From Paenibacillus xylanexedens (GTDB lineage: Bacteria > Bacillota > Bacilli > Paenibacillales > Paenibacillaceae): 64,000 bases of DNA. Location of the stretch: assembly GCF_001908275.1 (NCBI RefSeq), contig NZ_CP018620.1, positions 3,658,001 to 3,722,000 on the forward strand. Reading direction: 5' to 3'. The first letter of the stretch is position 1; each line of letters opens with the position of its first letter. A program made the translations under genes and the position numbers. The notes beneath the pieces were generated by a model that did no database searches, was not told the origin of the DNA, and was given only the letters and a program-made list of their open reading frames with translations. Below, in pieces: positions 24,710-56,608 of this stretch.

Positions 24710-24735
24710 TTGAAGTCAAAAGGACGGTGCATGCG

Positions 24736-25839
24736 ATGAAACAATTGATCGGAGTTATTAACCTTGACCATGAACTTGAAGAATTGAAGGAATTGACGTA
24801 TTTTCGCTGCGGAGCCGCGGTGCCTTATGCCGGGCGTTACCGTCTGATCGATTTTGTTCTATCCAATATGATGAATGCAGGCATTGAGAGTATTGGTGTA
24901 TTTGTACGGCGAAAATATCGCTCGCTGATGGACCATCTTGGTGACGGTAAACCTTGGGATTTGGATCGCAAGCATGGGGGTATGTTTATTTTGCCACCAG
25001 ACTGGAACGATCCAACAGATACATCACAAGGGGACTTGCAGCATTTCCATAACAATTTAGACTTTTTCCACAGAGGAGCAGGACAATATGTTGTGCATGC
25101 GGGCAGTCGCCATGTGACCAAAGCAGACCTCCAGGATGTCTACAGGTATCACATCAGTAAAGGAGCGGACGTTACACTGGTCTGCAAAAAAGTAGATCAG
25201 CTGCTGCCTGAGCATGATGCCTGTGTCAAAGTTGACCATGACGGGGACGGTAACGTGGTGGACATTCACCAAAGCGCTAATCACCCGAATATATATACAG
25301 AAATTTTCATCATGGAAAAAGAATTGTTCCTGCGCCAGGTGCAACGCTGCATTGATCATGGCGAGAGCCATTTCTTCCGGGATGTGATTCAAAAAAATCC
25401 GGATGGATTGAATATCGCTGCGTATGCATATGATGGCTATCACGCAGTCATCAATTCCATTGACAGTTATTATCGCAACAGTATGGATCTGCTGAACACA
25501 GGGCAATATGAACAACTGTTCAAGGAAGATCCGATCCAGACGAAAATTAAATACGAAGCGCCTGCCAAATACCTGGATACCGCCGATGTTAAACATTCAC
25601 TTCTCGCGAATGGCTGCATCGTAGGTGGAGAGGTGGAGGACAGCATTCTGTTCCGTGGTGTACAGGTGGCCAAGGGTGCTAAAATAAAAGGTTCTATCAT
25701 CATGCAGAAATGTTACATTGGTGAGGGGACTGTACTTGAGAATGTTATTCTCGATAAAGACGTGAGGCTGACCGGAGGACAGACGCTGATCGGTGACCCG
25801 TCGAATCCATACATTTTAGCAAAAAGTACTATTATCTAA
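24736..25839 (+). CDS. glgD: Glucose-1-phosphate adenylyltransferase regulatory subunit GlgD
   Basis: A 367-residue paralogue of GlgC with the N-terminus MKQLIGVINLDHE typical of GlgD. The Gly-rich GGGQGKRL loop of the catalytic subunit is missing (it reads INLDHELEEL), so it should not catalyse by itself. In Bacillus and Geobacillus, GlgD associates with GlgC and raises its activity. The IDFVLSNMMNAGIESIGVF and DLDRKHGGMFILPP segments mirror GlgC and show the shared ancestry. The beta-helix C-terminus is intact. Start: ATG at 24736 after AAAGGA; an in-frame GTG three codons earlier is less well placed. Probably co-transcribed with glgC. Confidence 0.93.
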   Translation: MKQLIGVINLDHELEELKELTYFRCGAAVPYAGRYRLIDFVLSNMMNAGIESIGVFVRRKYRSLMDHLGDGKPWDLDRKHGGMFILPPDWNDPTDTSQGDLQHFHNNLDFFHRGAGQYVVHAGSRHVTKADLQDVYRYHISKGADVTLVCKKVDQLLPEHDACVKVDHDGDGNVVDIHQSANHPNIYTEIFIMEKELFLRQVQRCIDHGESHFFRDVIQKNPDGLNIAAYAYDGYHAVINSIDSYYRNSMDLLNTGQYEQLFKEDPIQTKIKYEAPAKYLDTADVKHSLLANGCIVGGEVEDSILFRGVQVAKGAKIKGSIIMQKCYIGEGTVLENVILDKDVRLTGGQTLIGDPSNPYILAKSTII

Positions 25840-25883
25840 TGCCCACACGTAACCGATATCTTCTATAAATATATATAAAATAA

Positions 25884-26156
25884 AAATCCTGTAGGATGGA
25901 TTTAAGGTTCATACTCTTTCCACGCATGAATTGCATCTTCGAAAGTTCTCACCAGCATGCAAACGTAGTGGAGGGGACGAAATCGATTCTGAAGAAGCGT
26001 AGCGGTCGTCTTTATCACTGTATTTTCACATCTAAATAATAAATTCAAGAAAATACAGGGGTAACAGCGATCATAAGAACGATTCGTAACTGTAACGGCC
26101 ACTTTGCAGAGTGCTGAGCAACTGAGTGTATGAACCGCCACCATCCTGCAGGATTT
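25884..26156 (+). ncRNA. Structured leader RNA of glgP (copy 1 of a three-copy element)
   Basis: The 270-base glgP leader folds into one long domain. Outer pairings are AAATCCTGTAGGATGG with CCATCCTGCAGGATTT, GGTTCATAC with GTATGAACC, GCAAA/GTGG with CCAC/TTTGC (25959-25971 and 26099-26107), and ACGAA-TCG-TTCT with AGAACGATTCGT (26076-26087). Inside is a core shared with two other places in the window: TGAAGAAGCG (25990-25999), CTTTATCAC (26010-26018), a helix CTGTATTTTC/GAAAATACAG, and GGGGTAACAGCGATC (26058-26072). Helix sequences differ from the other copies while pairing is kept, as expected for a functional RNA. The element ends 20 bases before the glgP start, immediately ahead of its ribosome binding site GGGAGG. 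A cis-regulatory role is inferred. Confidence 0.65.
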
Positions 26157-26175
26157 CCCCGGGAGGAACCTACTT

Positions 26176-28608
26176 TTGTTTGACAACAAGGAAACGTTCA
26201 AGAGTATCTTTACACGGAATCTGGTCAGCAAATTGGGCAAACCGATTGAAGAAGCAACACAGGAAGACGTGTACCATGTACTGGGAAGCATGATCCGTGA
26301 ATATGCAGGCCAGGATTGGGCAGCGTCGAATCAGGGGTTCAAGCAGCGCCAGGATAAACAGGTCTATTACTTCTCGCTGGAATTCCTGATTGGACGTCTG
26401 CTCGGCAACAATCTGTTGAATGTGAATGAATTGGAATTGGTGCGTGACAGTTTAACTGAGCTGGGCTTCTCCTTGGAAGAGATAGAAGAACAGGAGGCGG
26501 ATGCAGGACTCGGTAACGGAGGTCTGGGACGACTCGCTGCCTGTTTCCTGGATTCACTCGCATCACTACGATATGCAGGACATGGTTGCGGGATTCGATA
26601 TAAATACGGGTTGTTTGAGCAAAAAATCATCAATGGTAATCAGGTAGAGTTACCCGACAATTGGCTGGATAAGGGCAATGAATGGGAAGTCCGCCGTCCA
26701 GACAAAAAGGTGGAAGTACAGTTCTGGGGCCGAGTAGAAGCTCATGAGCAGGATGGAGAATATCAGTTTGTTACAAAAGATGCCGAATCGGTTGTCGCCA
26801 TTCCCTATGACGTGCCTGTCATCGGTTATGGTCAAACTCATGTGAATACATTGCGTCTATGGAGTGCCGAGCCAAAGCGCGAGACTTCACTCGACACCCC
26901 TTCGAATTACTACGGCTATCTGGATTATAGCCGATCGGTTGAATCAATCTCGGAATTCCTGTATCCGGACGACTCTCAGTATGAAGGAAAGCTGCTGCGA
27001 TTGAAGCAGCAATACTTCATGTGCTCAGCAGGTGTACAGAGCGCCTTGCGTACGTTCAACAAGCTGGAGCTACCGTATGATCGGTTGCCTGATAAAGTGG
27101 CCTTCCACATTAATGACACGCATCCAACCTTGGTTATTCCAGAACTGATGCGCATCCTGATTGATGTGAAGGGGTATGGCTGGGATGAAGCATGGGATAT
27201 CACAACCCGAACTGTATCGTATACCAATCATACAACGCTTAGTGAGGCTCTTGAGAAGTGGCCTGTATCCATGATCAGCAAGCTGCTGCCACGAATCTAC
27301 ATGATCATTGAAGAGATCAACAAACGCTTCTGTGGCATGCTGCTGGACCGGTATCCGGGAGATCAGGATCGCATAGGGCATTTGGCTATTGTTGCAAACG
27401 ATCAGGTACGGATGGCACATCTGGCGATTGTAGGCACTCATAGCGTGAATGGTGTTGCTGCTCTGCACACCGAGATTTTGAAAGAGCGCGAGATGGCTCC
27501 GTTCTATGAACTGTATCCAGAGCGTTTCAATAACAAAACGAATGGTATCACCCATCGTCGCTGGTTGATGCATGCCAATCCGAAACTGTCGGATCTCATC
27601 ACGGATACAATCGGTAACGAATGGATAACAGAGCAGGGCAAGCTGGACCAGTTGGCTGGTTTTGCGGATAATACATCATTCCAGGAGCAGTTCCGTTCAA
27701 TTAAGCGGGATAACAAAGAGCGGCTTGCTGCGTATATTCTGGATCATACCGGGACAGCAGTGAATCCGGATTCCATCTTTGATGTACAGGTGAAGAGACT
27801 ACACGGGTACAAACGTCAACTGTTGAACATTCTGCATGTTATGCATCTGTATAACCGACTTAAGCATGATGCTTCGTTTGATATGGTACCACGTACGTTC
27901 ATCTTTGGTGCCAAGGCAGCGCCGAGTTATTATTTTGCCAAGAAAATTATCAAGCTGATCAACAACGTGGCTGACACGGTGAATCGGGATGCGGCCGTGA
28001 ATGACCGCTTGAAGGTATTTTTCCTCGAAAATTATTCCGTCTCTCTTGCAGAGAAGATCATTCCCGCTGCGGATGTTAGTGAACAGATCTCAACCGCAGG
28101 TAAGGAAGCTTCCGGTACGGGCAACATGAAATTTATGATGAACGGTGCTTTAACCATTGGCACGATGGATGGAGCCAACGTGGAGATGGCGGAGCAGGTT
28201 GGGGAAGAAAATATGTTCATCTATGGTCTGCGTGCAGACGAAGTACTTGAGTATTATCGTTCCGGCAGCTATCGTCCAAATGAGATTGTGCAGCACGATG
28301 AACGCATTCGCGAGGTCGTGGAGCAACTGGTGCATCCAGGTGCATTCTGTTATCGTGACGGGGAGTTCTGGGATATTTATGACTCCTTGCTGGCCCATGG
28401 TGATGAATACTTTGTATTGCGTGATTTTGCTGCTTATGCAGACGCGCATGCAGCGATTGACCAGGCATATCGGGATATTCCCGGCTGGACTCGGAAAGCG
28501 ATATTAAACACGGCACATTCCGGCATATTCTCCAGTGATCGTACCATTAGTGAGTATGCGACAGATATCTGGGGTATTCATCCGGTGTCCGGGAACTGGA
28601 AAGGTTAA
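26176..28608 (+). CDS. glgP: Glycogen/maltodextrin phosphorylase
   Basis: An 810-residue GT35 alpha-glucan phosphorylase, which uses phosphate to release glucose-1-phosphate from glycogen in the cytosol. The PLP site is in EASGTGNMKFMMNGALTIGT (about residue 640-660), where the Lys after GNM binds PLP. GNGGLGRLAACFLDS near residue 115 and VKRLHGYKRQLLN near 540 are further family signatures. Length is normal (about 800). Translation starts at TTG, 9 bases after GGGAGG, which lies at the end of the structured leader. glgC-glgD precede it, but the synthase (glgA) and branching enzyme (glgB) usually found in such clusters are absent from this window. Confidence 0.95.
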   Translation: MFDNKETFKSIFTRNLVSKLGKPIEEATQEDVYHVLGSMIREYAGQDWAASNQGFKQRQDKQVYYFSLEFLIGRLLGNNLLNVNELELVRDSLTELGFSLEEIEEQEADAGLGNGGLGRLAACFLDSLASLRYAGHGCGIRYKYGLFEQKIINGNQVELPDNWLDKGNEWEVRRPDKKVEVQFWGRVEAHEQDGEYQFVTKDAESVVAIPYDVPVIGYGQTHVNTLRLWSAEPKRETSLDTPSNYYGYLDYSRSVESISEFLYPDDSQYEGKLLRLKQQYFMCSAGVQSALRTFNKLELPYDRLPDKVAFHINDTHPTLVIPELMRILIDVKGYGWDEAWDITTRTVSYTNHTTLSEALEKWPVSMISKLLPRIYMIIEEINKRFCGMLLDRYPGDQDRIGHLAIVANDQVRMAHLAIVGTHSVNGVAALHTEILKEREMAPFYELYPERFNNKTNGITHRRWLMHANPKLSDLITDTIGNEWITEQGKLDQLAGFADNTSFQEQFRSIKRDNKERLAAYILDHTGTAVNPDSIFDVQVKRLHGYKRQLLNILHVMHLYNRLKHDASFDMVPRTFIFGAKAAPSYYFAKKIIKLINNVADTVNRDAAVNDRLKVFFLENYSVSLAEKIIPAADVSEQISTAGKEASGTGNMKFMMNGALTIGTMDGANVEMAEQVGEENMFIYGLRADEVLEYYRSGSYRPNEIVQHDERIREVVEQLVHPGAFCYRDGEFWDIYDSLLAHGDEYFVLRDFAAYADAHAAIDQAYRDIPGWTRKAILNTAHSGIFSSDRTISEYATDIWGIHPVSGNWKG

Positions 28609-29421: not shown

Positions 29422-29445
29422 CGCGGTCCATGACCGGGTCTTTTT
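29422..29445 (+). terminator. Probable terminator after the VanZ-like gene
   Basis: CGCGGTC-CAT-GACCGGG hairpin followed by TCTTTTT, 10 bases after the stop codon. Confidence 0.6.
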
Positions 29446-29531: not shown

Positions 29532-29721
29532 ATATATAAATTGAACTAAACATTTACACGAAACGGAGAGGACAGAAATAACCTGAAGAAGCGAAAGCGT
29601 TCGCCTTTATCACCGGATTTTCCCCTTATAAGGGGAATTCATAAAATCTGGGGATAACAGCGATCGGAAGGTTGTTCTGTCATCGGAGTGTCCAGTGTAA
29701 ATATTCTTTAGTTCAATTTTT
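29532..29721 (+). ncRNA. Structured leader RNA of the GH13 glucosidase gene (copy 2)
   Basis: The closing stem TTGAACTAAA/TTTAGTTCAA (29541-29550 and about 29707-29716) continues as TTTACAC/GTGTAAA and GACAGAA/TTCTGTC, then AACCT/AGGTT. The core matches the glgP leader: TGAAGAAGCG (29584-29593), a GCGAA-AGCG-TTCGC hairpin, CTTTATCAC (29605-29613), helix CCGGATTTT/AAAATCTGG capped by CCCCTTATAAGGGG, and GGGGATAACAGCGATC (29650-29665). The 3' strand of the closing stem runs up to the possible GTG start at 29725, so folding could affect translation initiation. The ligand and role are unknown. Confidence 0.65.
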
Positions 29722-29724
29722 ATA

Positions 29725-31437
29725 GTGGACAATGATGAGAGCGAGGTGGGCGATATCGTTTGGTGGAAAGAGAGTGTGGTATACCAGATTTACCCGAGCA
29801 GCTTTAAGGATTCGGACGGGGATGGATATGGCGACTTGCAGGGAATCTATGAGAAGCTCGATTATTTGGAGAATTTAGGCGTAGATGTGATCTGGCTCTG
29901 TCCCATTTACGATTCACCAGGACATGATAACGGATATGATATCCGGGATTACTACGGCATTTTACGCAAGTATGGCACGATGGAGGATTTTGATCGATTA
30001 TTGGCAGAGGCACACAAACGTGGTCTCAAGATCATGATGGACCTGGTGCTGAATCATACGTCAGATGAACATGCTTGGTTTGCTGAATCGCGTTCTTCAA
30101 AGATGAATCCGAAGCGGGATTATTATATTTGGCGTTCAGGCAAAAATGGGCAAGTGCCGAATAATTGGGAGTCCTATTTTGGGGGTTCGGTGTGGAAGCA
30201 TGATCCCGAGACAAATGAATATTATCTGCATCTGTATTCGGAACAGCAACCGGATCTCAACTGGAACAATGCACAGATGGCAGAAGAGATGTATGAGATG
30301 GTGCATTGGTGGCTGGAAAAAGGGGTCGACGGATTCCGTTTTGATGCAGTAGCGCATATCGCCAAGGCAGAGGGTCTGCCAAGTGCCCACAATCCGGATA
30401 ATCTGCCGGTGGTTCCAGCTTATCAGCTCTTTTCCAACCTGGAACAGGTACACTCCATCCTGAAGAAACTGAATAACATGATCCTGAAACCTTACGGACC
30501 CATGACGGTTGGCGAGACTTCCGGACTTGGGCCTGAGCAGGCCTTGGCTTATGTGGGGACGGATCGTGATGAACTTAATATGGTATTCCAGTTTGAGCAT
30601 ATGTTTATCGATGCCAAATCCTCTGGAATTGGTAAATGGAACTATAAAGAATGGAAATTGACAGATCTCAAAGAAATCATGAGCCGGTGGCAAACGGTTT
30701 TGCATGGTAGAGGCTGGAACGCCAATTATATGGGGAACCATGATCAGCCACGTCCGGTTTCCCGTTTTGGTGATGATGGTAAATATCGGGTGCGTTCTGC
30801 TCAGATGCTGGCGACATGGATGCTTACACTCGAAGGGACCCCCTACATCTACCAAGGAGAAGAGATCGGCATGACCAATGTCGCTTTCCCGAATATCGAA
30901 CAATACCGGGACATCGAGACCAAAAATTATTTCAATCATTACATTGGTCAAGGTAAGTCGAAGCATGAAGTTATGCAGGCAATCTGGCTGAAGAGTCGCG
31001 ATAATGCCCGCACGCCGATGCAATGGGATGAGACGGAACACGCAGGGTTTACCCAGGGTCAGCCGTGGATTCAGGTGAATGATAATTATCCTGAGATTAA
31101 TGTTGCTGATGCCGAAAGTGATCCGCAATCCATTCTGCATTATTACCGTAAGTTAATTGCGCTTCGCAAACAGCATAAAGTGCTTATCTATGGCGCGTAT
31201 GAACTGCTGCTGCCGGATGATCCGGATATCTATGCCTATACCCGAACGCTGGATGATGAGCAGATGTTGGTCATTCTGAATTTCCGTGGTCATGAACCTG
31301 AGATGCACTGGCCGGAAGGCTGGGATTCCGAGCATGCCAAGCTGATCATCAGCAACGTAAGCAGACGTTATTCTACCGATGAAGGTGCCATTCAGCTTCA
31401 GCCGTATGAGGCAAGGATATATCGTAAGCAGCGGTGA
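29725..31437 (+). CDS. GH13 alpha-glucosidase (oligo-1,6-glucosidase type)
   Basis: A 570-residue intracellular GH13 enzyme without signal peptide, of the oligo-1,6-glucosidase/trehalose-6-phosphate hydrolase subfamily. Its four conserved regions are DLVLNHTSDEH, GFRFDAVAH (nucleophile D207), VGETSGLG (acid/base E264) and MGNHDQPRPVS (D340). It hydrolyses alpha-glucosidic bonds at the non-reducing end of short sugars; isomaltose, maltose, sucrose and trehalose-6-phosphate are all possible. It is a distant paralogue of the treC-like gene at 34199 but has no transporter next to it and is preceded by the structured leader. The start is uncertain: GTG 29725 lacks a ribosome binding site, whereas GTG 29746 follows GATGAGAG and leaves the conserved WWKESVVYQIYP intact. 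Confidence 0.88.
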   Translation: MDNDESEVGDIVWWKESVVYQIYPSSFKDSDGDGYGDLQGIYEKLDYLENLGVDVIWLCPIYDSPGHDNGYDIRDYYGILRKYGTMEDFDRLLAEAHKRGLKIMMDLVLNHTSDEHAWFAESRSSKMNPKRDYYIWRSGKNGQVPNNWESYFGGSVWKHDPETNEYYLHLYSEQQPDLNWNNAQMAEEMYEMVHWWLEKGVDGFRFDAVAHIAKAEGLPSAHNPDNLPVVPAYQLFSNLEQVHSILKKLNNMILKPYGPMTVGETSGLGPEQALAYVGTDRDELNMVFQFEHMFIDAKSSGIGKWNYKEWKLTDLKEIMSRWQTVLHGRGWNANYMGNHDQPRPVSRFGDDGKYRVRSAQMLATWMLTLEGTPYIYQGEEIGMTNVAFPNIEQYRDIETKNYFNHYIGQGKSKHEVMQAIWLKSRDNARTPMQWDETEHAGFTQGQPWIQVNDNYPEINVADAESDPQSILHYYRKLIALRKQHKVLIYGAYELLLPDDPDIYAYTRTLDDEQMLVILNFRGHEPEMHWPEGWDSEHAKLIISNVSRRYSTDEGAIQLQPYEARIYRKQR

Positions 31438-56000: not shown

Positions 56001-56263
56001 TATATAAGTTGAACTAATCATTTACACGATAACGGAGAAGATAGAAAAAACCTGAAAAAGCGAAGCTACAAGCTTTCTGCAAGAAAGCTACTTCGAAAGC
56101 ATACACTTCGCCTAAAAGCTTTCTTAAAGAAAGCTACATCGGAAGCATACGCTATCACCGGATTTTCCCTTGAGAAAAGGGAATCGAAAAATCTGGGGAT
56201 AACAGCGATTGGAAGGTTATTCTGTCTTCGTAGAGTCTGTGTAAATAATTTTTAGTTCAACTA
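56001..56263 (+). ncRNA. Structured RNA element upstream of the SGNH esterase (copy 3)
   Basis: Same architecture as the copies at 25884 and 29532. The closing stem is TTGAACTAA (56009-56017)/TTAGTTCAA (56252-56260), with TTTACAC/GTGTAAA and an inner GATAGAA/TTCTGTC. The core is TGAAAAAGCG (56053-56062), CTATCAC, helix CCGGATTTT/AAAATCTGG capped by CCCTTGAGAAAAGGG, and GGGGATAACAGCGATT (56195-56210). The first internal hairpin is enlarged by a tandem duplication that forms two extra hairpins of AGCTTTCT/AGAAAGCT (56071-56089 and 56118-56135). It lies about 380 bases before the esterase gene, so it might regulate it from a long leader or act independently. Confidence 0.6.
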
Positions 56264-56608
56264 GAGCGTGTCTTCAAATTGAACGTGTCTGGAGCAGGGC
56301 ACGGAGCGGGAGCGCTAACGACCCTGTGACGTCTTATTCAGCGATTTGAAGCGCCCGCAGCAATCTAAGGAATCTGAAACACGCTATATTGGAATAAGCA
56401 GTCGTTTACAGCTTGTTTATTAGGTGAATTTGGTTAATAACGTGTCTCAGGTTCCTTACAAAATAAAAGGAGGACTCGAAGGCTAAATAAGACTTCCTCG
56501 GTTCCTTAGAAAAACTTCTGGACAATTCGCCAGGATCAGCAATTCTTGACTTCAAGCTGTTGGACCCTGACATCCTTCAACGTATTGCATGCCTAAGTTT
56601 GAAGACAC
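56264..56608. repeat. Palindromic non-coding block before the SGNH esterase
   Basis: GTGTCTTCAAA (56268-56278) reappears as TTTGAAGACAC at 56598-56608, so about 340 gene-free bases are bounded by 11-base inverted repeats. A shorter unit inside it, from AGCGTGT (56264) to ACACGCT (about 56386), has nested arms such as CTTCAAAT/ATTTGAAG and CAGGG/CCCTG. It could be a MITE-like or REP-like element. The right end lies in the region just before the signal peptide gene. Confidence 0.4.

Follow-up and report, generated by a model that had tools for sequence, protein, structure and literature searches.

A dispersed Paenibacillus repeat, likely an IS630-type MITE family with a selected RNA hairpin and possibly domesticated at glgP

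The window analyzed here is a stretch of 64,000 nucleotides from Paenibacillus xylanexedens (G000:C1:3658001-3722000, with G000 denoting the source genome of 7.10 Mb); positions are those of the window unless stated otherwise, and the leader parts and repeat copies described lie on its forward strand. The leader of glgP sits between glgD (24727-25839) and glgP itself (open reading frame 26176-28608, TTG start, Pfam Phosphorylase), where the names GlgC and GlgD are our reading of two nucleotidyl-transferase genes preceding a phosphorylase. An outer stem is predicted to pair its 5' side (AAATCCTGTAGGATGG, 25884-25899) with its 3' side (26141-26156), which stops 4 nt upstream of the likely glgP ribosome binding site GGGAGG (26161-26166). 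Between both sides lies a repeat element of what we term subtype B (TGCAAACGTAGTGG ... CCACTTTGCA, about 25958-26108), as read in the sequence and from matches to this copy: the stretch in common with other subtype B copies runs from about 25965 to 26102, and matches in the genome mostly cover positions 75-225 of the query. The conserved core consists of a left arm (25990-26018, with TGAAGAAGCG at 25990-25999 and CTTTATCAC at 26010-26018) and a right arm (GGGGTAACAGCGATC, 26058-26072, from sequence and alignments). For the leader RNA (25886-26156) the predicted fold has an energy of -92.5 kcal/mol (z = -6.08), which was equalled by 0 of 200 shuffles. The region 25800-26200 holds two promoter-like matches (mean of shuffles 0.8, sd 0.9) and no terminator-like site.

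Two further copies are found in the window, both of subtype A. The first has inverted ends (TATAAATTGAACTAA ... TTAGTTCAATTTTTATA, 29533-29724, ends approximate) and is located directly upstream of a GH13 gene at 29725; between 29400 and 29760 there is no promoter-like match, and the two terminator-like sites (29424-29440) are outside the element. The second (56001-56264) is expanded by two inner hairpin modules (about 56065-56152; such modules were counted over 160 elements, see below), starts about 20 nt past the stop of the preceding gene and ends about 295 nt upstream of the start of an esterase gene. A sequence-only reading of this DNA had described three related foldable copies at these places, and nhmmer, run over a 458 kb stretch of the source genome that includes the window, indeed gave exactly these three matches above 35 bits within the window. 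Its further statements that the glgP copy retains the core and ends against the ribosome binding site agree with the features given above. The same applies to its remark that the core could not be matched to a named riboswitch class: scanning the complete window against Rfam at the gathering score gave nothing, and for four copy-bearing loci even a cutoff relaxed to E = 1 brought up no family.

The covariation proposed in that reading was confirmed by comparing orthologous leaders of glgP. Twelve of these were aligned (two with a nested insert were left out, and named records stand for two genomes), in which 95.7% of 630 cells are paired, against at most 46.5% with slid partners. Changes on both sides are seen in 13 of 53 pairs (shuffled mean 7.3; 1 of 500 shuffles as high), the number of cells with a double change is 37 (against 12.1 in shuffles, sd 3.0) and the covariation score amounts to 0.229 (against 0.134; 0 of 500 as high). 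Further pair types in these 12 leaders do not exceed the shuffles (391 of 500 as high). For the outer stem (helix 1), double changes are observed in 3 of 10 counted pairs.

The number of copies is far larger than the 'three-copy' RNA of the earlier reading: the exact pattern GGRNWAACAGCGAT occurs 140 times in the source genome (62 forward, 78 reverse; 0 for a reversed-pattern control). DNA searches gave at least 42 matches with a subtype A copy (40 of 238 candidates scored) and at least 46 with the glgP copy (40 of 132), both being lower bounds because only part of the candidates was scored. Among 59 genomes, the source genome included, pattern RAYAACAGCGATY is abundant in 21 of the 36 that belong to the genus (40-183 occurrences each). 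Counts are 2-13 in the remaining 15 Paenibacillus and 0-4 in the 23 representatives of other genera. The element-rich genomes belong to one Paenibacillus clade.

For a census we used 160 elements with scores above 60 bits in 0.94 Mb of the source genome, largely fetched around known matches and thus no random sample. This set comprises 115 elements of subtype A, 22 of subtype B and 23 unassigned by simple motifs, and one or two inner hairpin modules are present in 56 of the 160. Copies are about 190-260 bp long and carry no transposase gene inside. The inner core is common to both subtypes despite their different outer parts, and forms one long hairpin with fixed internal loops. Identity of a copy to its nearest-neighbour copy is 89.9% (median; maximum 96.7%); background identity is about 90.5% between the source genome and G016, and 76.6% between the source genome and G003.

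Sites were compared for 458 kb of the source genome and 400 kb each of G016 and G003. Out of 18 copies, 14 could be placed in G016 (9 filled, 5 not) and 10 in G003, where the glgP copy is the one filled site and 9 copies are missing. In G016, remnants of the element persist at two of the five unfilled sites, which are therefore taken as deletions. A duplication of TA could be read cleanly in two events (position 391266 of the source genome against G016, and G016 186834 against G003), the insert being flanked by TA on either side and the empty site having a single TA; these are 2 of 18 filled/empty pairs, most others being too diverged or deleted and the one at 271207 of the source genome ambiguous. 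One of both events lies at CTAG, and C precedes the TA in 63% of 68 left ends; the preference for C-TA-G rests on these left ends together with single events. Nesting is also observed: G016 and G008 have a complete subtype A element lodged in the apical loop of the subtype B element ahead of glgP.

The ends of subtype A (TATAARTTGAACTAA) also bound IS630-type transposase genes in relatives, with the 15-base ends themselves in the first two of the three loci that follow. In a genome of another family of the order (L324), TATAAGTTGAACTAA is present at both ends of 1172 bp around a match to DDE_3 (PF13358, IS630-type transposase). In G006 the ends TATAAGTTGAACTAA and TATAAATTGAACTAA enclose 1162 bp around such a match (L340), and a second locus (L325) has near-identical ends 1131 bp apart with a DDE_3 open frame of 355 codons. 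The right end of the latter repeats ACCTGAAGAAGC of the left arm of the core, scoring 24 beyond the first 15 bases (95% of shuffles at most 17), and a fragment from within the clade (L337, in G008) scores 21 (against 16 for 95% of shuffles); most of the 18 comparisons of extended ends are not above chance. Given the shared ends, the best reading of subtype A is that of a MITE belonging to such an insertion sequence. This holds for subtype A alone, as the ends of subtype B gave no match to IS630-type ends.

DDE_3 matches are found in 16 of the 59 genomes and not in the source genome (0 matches to PF13358). Within the genus the pattern is inverse to that of the element: 2 of 21 element-rich genomes (G008 and G012) have matches, partial only, against 9 of the 15 element-poor ones. 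The family seems close to dormancy, given that most carrier genomes now show no sign of the transposase; descent as a MITE does not need an IS630 transposase in the same genome. Candidates for a parent inside the source genome were rejected. For an autonomous version, 20 left arms without a listed right core all turned out to have one (one element is truncated at the 3' end); five lone ends were read, of more listed, and are remnants; and none of seven PF01609 transposase matches has the ends of the element.

Retention of the glgP copy follows a different pattern from that of other copies. Among 29 genomes searched, 16 have a close GlgP: the copy is present in all 10 with a GlgP at least 90% identical (8 with the exact motif, 2 with AACGGCGAT, by eye) and in 0 of 6 with a GlgP about 68% identical, which are more distant Paenibacillus. 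This contrasts with the 9 of 10 placeable copies missing in G003. From 80 named glgP loci 18 were read, 6 with the element (some being the same genomes as above) and 12 without. The named records with the best GlgP identity are Paenibacillus sp. PAMC 26794 (99%), sp. OVF10 (98%), P. taichungensis (94%) and P. xylanilyticus (93%). One locus titled Chryseobacterium sp. ISL-80 (L272) has a GlgP that ranks with those of Bacillaceae (58% to the query), and its organism name may be wrong. In G016 and G008, where a subtype A element broke into the glgP copy, the left arm of the old core is shortened or altered. The old arms still pair overall (-34.3 and -33.5 kcal/mol; two insert-free leaders gave -28.7 and -42.0), and the altered arm gives a weak hint that the old core was replaced.

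Changes in the core were traced over 91 unexpanded cores out of the 160 elements (FastTree tree, Fitch parsimony). With the restriction that counts of covariation and strand asymmetry overstate independence, because copies share ancestry and may recombine, 65 changes from one Watson-Crick pair to another are spread over 26 of 40 core pairs, and 83 changes lead from Watson-Crick to other mismatches in the core; changes from Watson-Crick to G-U and to A-C amount to 51 and 23 in the core, against 15 and 22 in five pairs of the apical hairpin (Fisher p = 0.007); and the sense RNA is stabler than the antisense RNA in 139 of 160 elements of the source genome and 42 of 46 in G036. Copies in 5' UTRs are no better paired in their core than the others (mean of 2.39 against 2.00 broken pairs for 23 and 27 copies; p = 0.29). 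This gives no support to a role at every individual host gene and argues for selection on the element more than through each host gene.

These data also bear on a plain MITE without any role at the RNA level, whose hairpin and covariation would stem from template-switch correction of palindromes or from gene conversion, and whose position bias would reflect survival of selection against harm. We regard this as unlikely, yet deserving of serious weight. It is in line with the equally good pairing outside 5' UTRs, with the decay of copies (the two G016 sites that keep a piece, the five lone ends read as remnants) and with two core states, TTATC/GATAA and TTGTC/GACAA, each found repeatedly in the genome, as would be expected from spread by conversion. 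Against it, the excess of G-U over A-C changes is seen in the core and not in the apical hairpin; a DNA process should not distinguish strands. Moreover, the outer stem at glgP also has double changes even though its sequence is not shared with other copies, and the glgP copy is retained across the clade.

Movement of the hairpin as single-stranded DNA by a Y1 (IS200/REP-type) transposase has very little to commend it. Subtype B copies begin with GTAGTG and are hairpins, a GTAG tag marks REP repeats according to the title of PMC3733652, and Y1_Tnp matches are present in the source genome. Nonetheless, no Y1_Tnp was found in 7 of the 21 element-rich genomes (including G008, G016, G034 and G045, with 119-149 cores each), and subtype A instead has inverted ends and, in two readable events, a TA duplication.

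Gene context was derived from simple ORF calling around 100 of the 140 matches in the source genome, namely those that come first by coordinate. Nearly all (98) are intergenic, the 2 inside genes being taken as chance matches. Sites between tandem genes make up 58 of the 98, with 43 copies sense and 15 antisense (p = 0.0003), and convergent sites 19; 64 copies are on the leading strand, and in 34 an opposing gene is next downstream. Copies on the lagging strand, too, are oriented with their genes (Fisher p = 0.014, based on small numbers). With ends of the element approximated from the motif, a start codon lies no more than 40 nt from the 3' end in 38 of 64 cases and from the 5' end in 4 of 36; proximity to stop codons, in the same survey and with the same approximation, was 24/34 and 15/62. 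For tandem copies in the 400-458 kb regions the ratio of sense to antisense is 12:2 in the source genome, 12:0 in G016 and 3:1 in G003. G036, which at about 92% identity is not independent of the source genome, has 24 sense against 5 antisense copies, with start codons at 20/33 (3' end) against 1/14 (5' end). From position and orientation taken together, the 3' end of the element points at a gene, whichever way the gene runs, a polarity that may stem from insertion preference or from survival.

In the sample used to compare pairing inside and outside 5' UTRs, 43 genes start right after a copy. Pfam scans of 20 of these gave one glycoside hydrolase, next to thymidylate synthase, SAICAR synthetase, nucleoside hydrolase, 5'-3' exonuclease, peptidases and regulators of the TetR and LacI types; functions are mixed and no common pathway was found among the 20. 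A carbohydrate regulon is rejected on this result and on the dispersal of 140 cores. The sequence-only reading had placed the RNA ahead of carbohydrate genes, which does not hold for a dispersed element (and at 56001 the esterase is some 295 nt away). What stands of its functional RNA is a covarying structured element in the glgP leader without an Rfam match, not an RNA class tied to carbohydrate genes. It had described a MITE as scattered and also without covariation; the copies are scattered, and covariation is present. That glgP and other carbohydrate genes are under the control of a metabolite riboswitch sensing sugars or sugar phosphates is scarcely credible: a structured, covarying leader beside the glgP ribosome binding site would suit this idea, as would the two of three window copies directly before carbohydrate genes, but the exact cores adjoin genes of unrelated function, 34 of 98 copies face an opposing gene, orthologous sites are both filled and empty, six more distant Paenibacillus lack the element in their glgP leaders, and the region 25800-26200 is free of terminator-like sites.

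Altogether we consider it likely that the copies constitute a MITE family of IS630 type whose RNA hairpin is under selection, with a possible domestication at glgP. Its mobile past is documented by the dispersal, the filled and empty sites, the shared ends, the TA in both readable events and the nesting. For the hairpin we observe compensatory changes, a G-U excess restricted to the core, asymmetric stability, polarity and long retention at glgP. Counted against this reading are the absence of an IS630 transposase from the source genome, the restriction to partial matches in 2 of 21 element-rich genomes, the core pairing of 5' UTR copies (no better than elsewhere), the shared ancestry and possible recombination of copies, and the fact that only two insertion sites could be read cleanly.

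In mechanistic terms, mobilisation of subtype A most likely took place in trans, through IS630-type transposases recognising the ends TATAARTTGAACTAA; such a transposase would duplicate TA, often in a C-TA-G setting, and has presumably since been lost from most carrier genomes. The pattern of change in the core is that of a sense-strand RNA, which suggests RNA as the selected unit. A co-transcribed copy would provide a folded spacer ending beside a ribosome binding site or stop codon, and for that reason probably alters processing, stability or translation of the mRNA in cis, by analogy with Correia elements. At glgP, an old subtype B copy, enclosed by the covarying outer stem in the gap between glgD and glgP, has persisted throughout the clade and probably acts as an intercistronic hairpin that separates stability or translation of the glgP mRNA from that of glgC-glgD; this copy is possibly domesticated. 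A bolder version is conceivable, which we put forward tentatively: a MITE lineage in which the sense-strand RNA module is the lasting unit under outer parts A and B, making insertions tolerable or even useful through the mRNA near ribosome binding sites; domestication would then have turned the glgP copy into a fixed regulator of glycogen breakdown.

Several known repeats resemble the element. CREE of Neisseria are short, structured and without a long gene inside, and occur in about 120 (gonococcal) to 250 (meningococcal) copies; they often have a TA target, inverted ends and a directional core, are often found 5' of genes and vary between strains, and RNase III is able to cleave their RNA hairpins (PMC2649163). 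The Paenibacillus element shares the short structured form, copy number, inverted ends, directional core, location 5' of genes and presence/absence variation, with TA seen in its two readable events, but has other ends and another core, the latter conserved under two outer kinds and with a strong orientation bias. The nearest Gram-positive parallels are RUP and BOX of Streptococcus pneumoniae (PMC3049150). RUP is about 107 bp long and dispersed, with inverted ends, a target duplication and IS630-Spn1 as proposed mover in trans; our element likewise shares its ends with an IS630-type element, whereas its transposase is found in relatives and not in its own genome, and sequence and conserved covarying core differ. 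BOX is modular, with an optional, repeatable inner module, dispersed, foldable as RNA and seemingly dormant; about 61% is on the leading strand, with over-representation between convergent genes. Here the likeness lies in the one or two inner modules (56/160 copies) and in the leading strand (64/98), and the difference in sequence, ends and location, which in Paenibacillus is convergent for 19/98 and tandem, mostly sense, for 58/98.

No prior description of the element was found in titles and abstracts among the matches listed for the open-licence PMC literature on Paenibacillus repeats, MITE and IS630. As far as these searches go, it represents an undescribed, abundant repeat family of Paenibacillus, here joined to a likely IS630 parent. 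A review states that MITE transcripts could conceivably form riboswitches or terminators (PMC10969869, in which the word Paenibacillus does not occur). The strand-specific conservation of the core makes selection on MITE transcripts at the RNA level, a matter usually left open, directly testable. With more than 100 natural insertions in each genome, for some of which a sister species has the empty site, the effect of a folded insertion on its neighbour gene can be measured. The element also serves as a warning that covariation together with a leader position is no proof of a riboswitch.

Some variant forms of the element were noted in addition. The inner hairpin module consists of AAGCTTTCTGAAAGAAAGCT plus ACATCGGAAGCATACGC; the core has two insertion points for it and carries one or two modules. 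Among 61 occurrences, 58 are within a scored element, and the remaining 3 also adjoin a core. At about G000:C1:5673740-5674190 (L066 and L067) three subtype B copies stand in a row with motifs about 182 bp apart, an array for which insertion alone is no sufficient explanation. Finally, a pair of subtype A ends (TATAAGTTCAACTAA) in facing orientation, separated by 95 bp and with no core match listed, is present at G000:C1:4314243-4314337 and is possibly a still smaller derivative.
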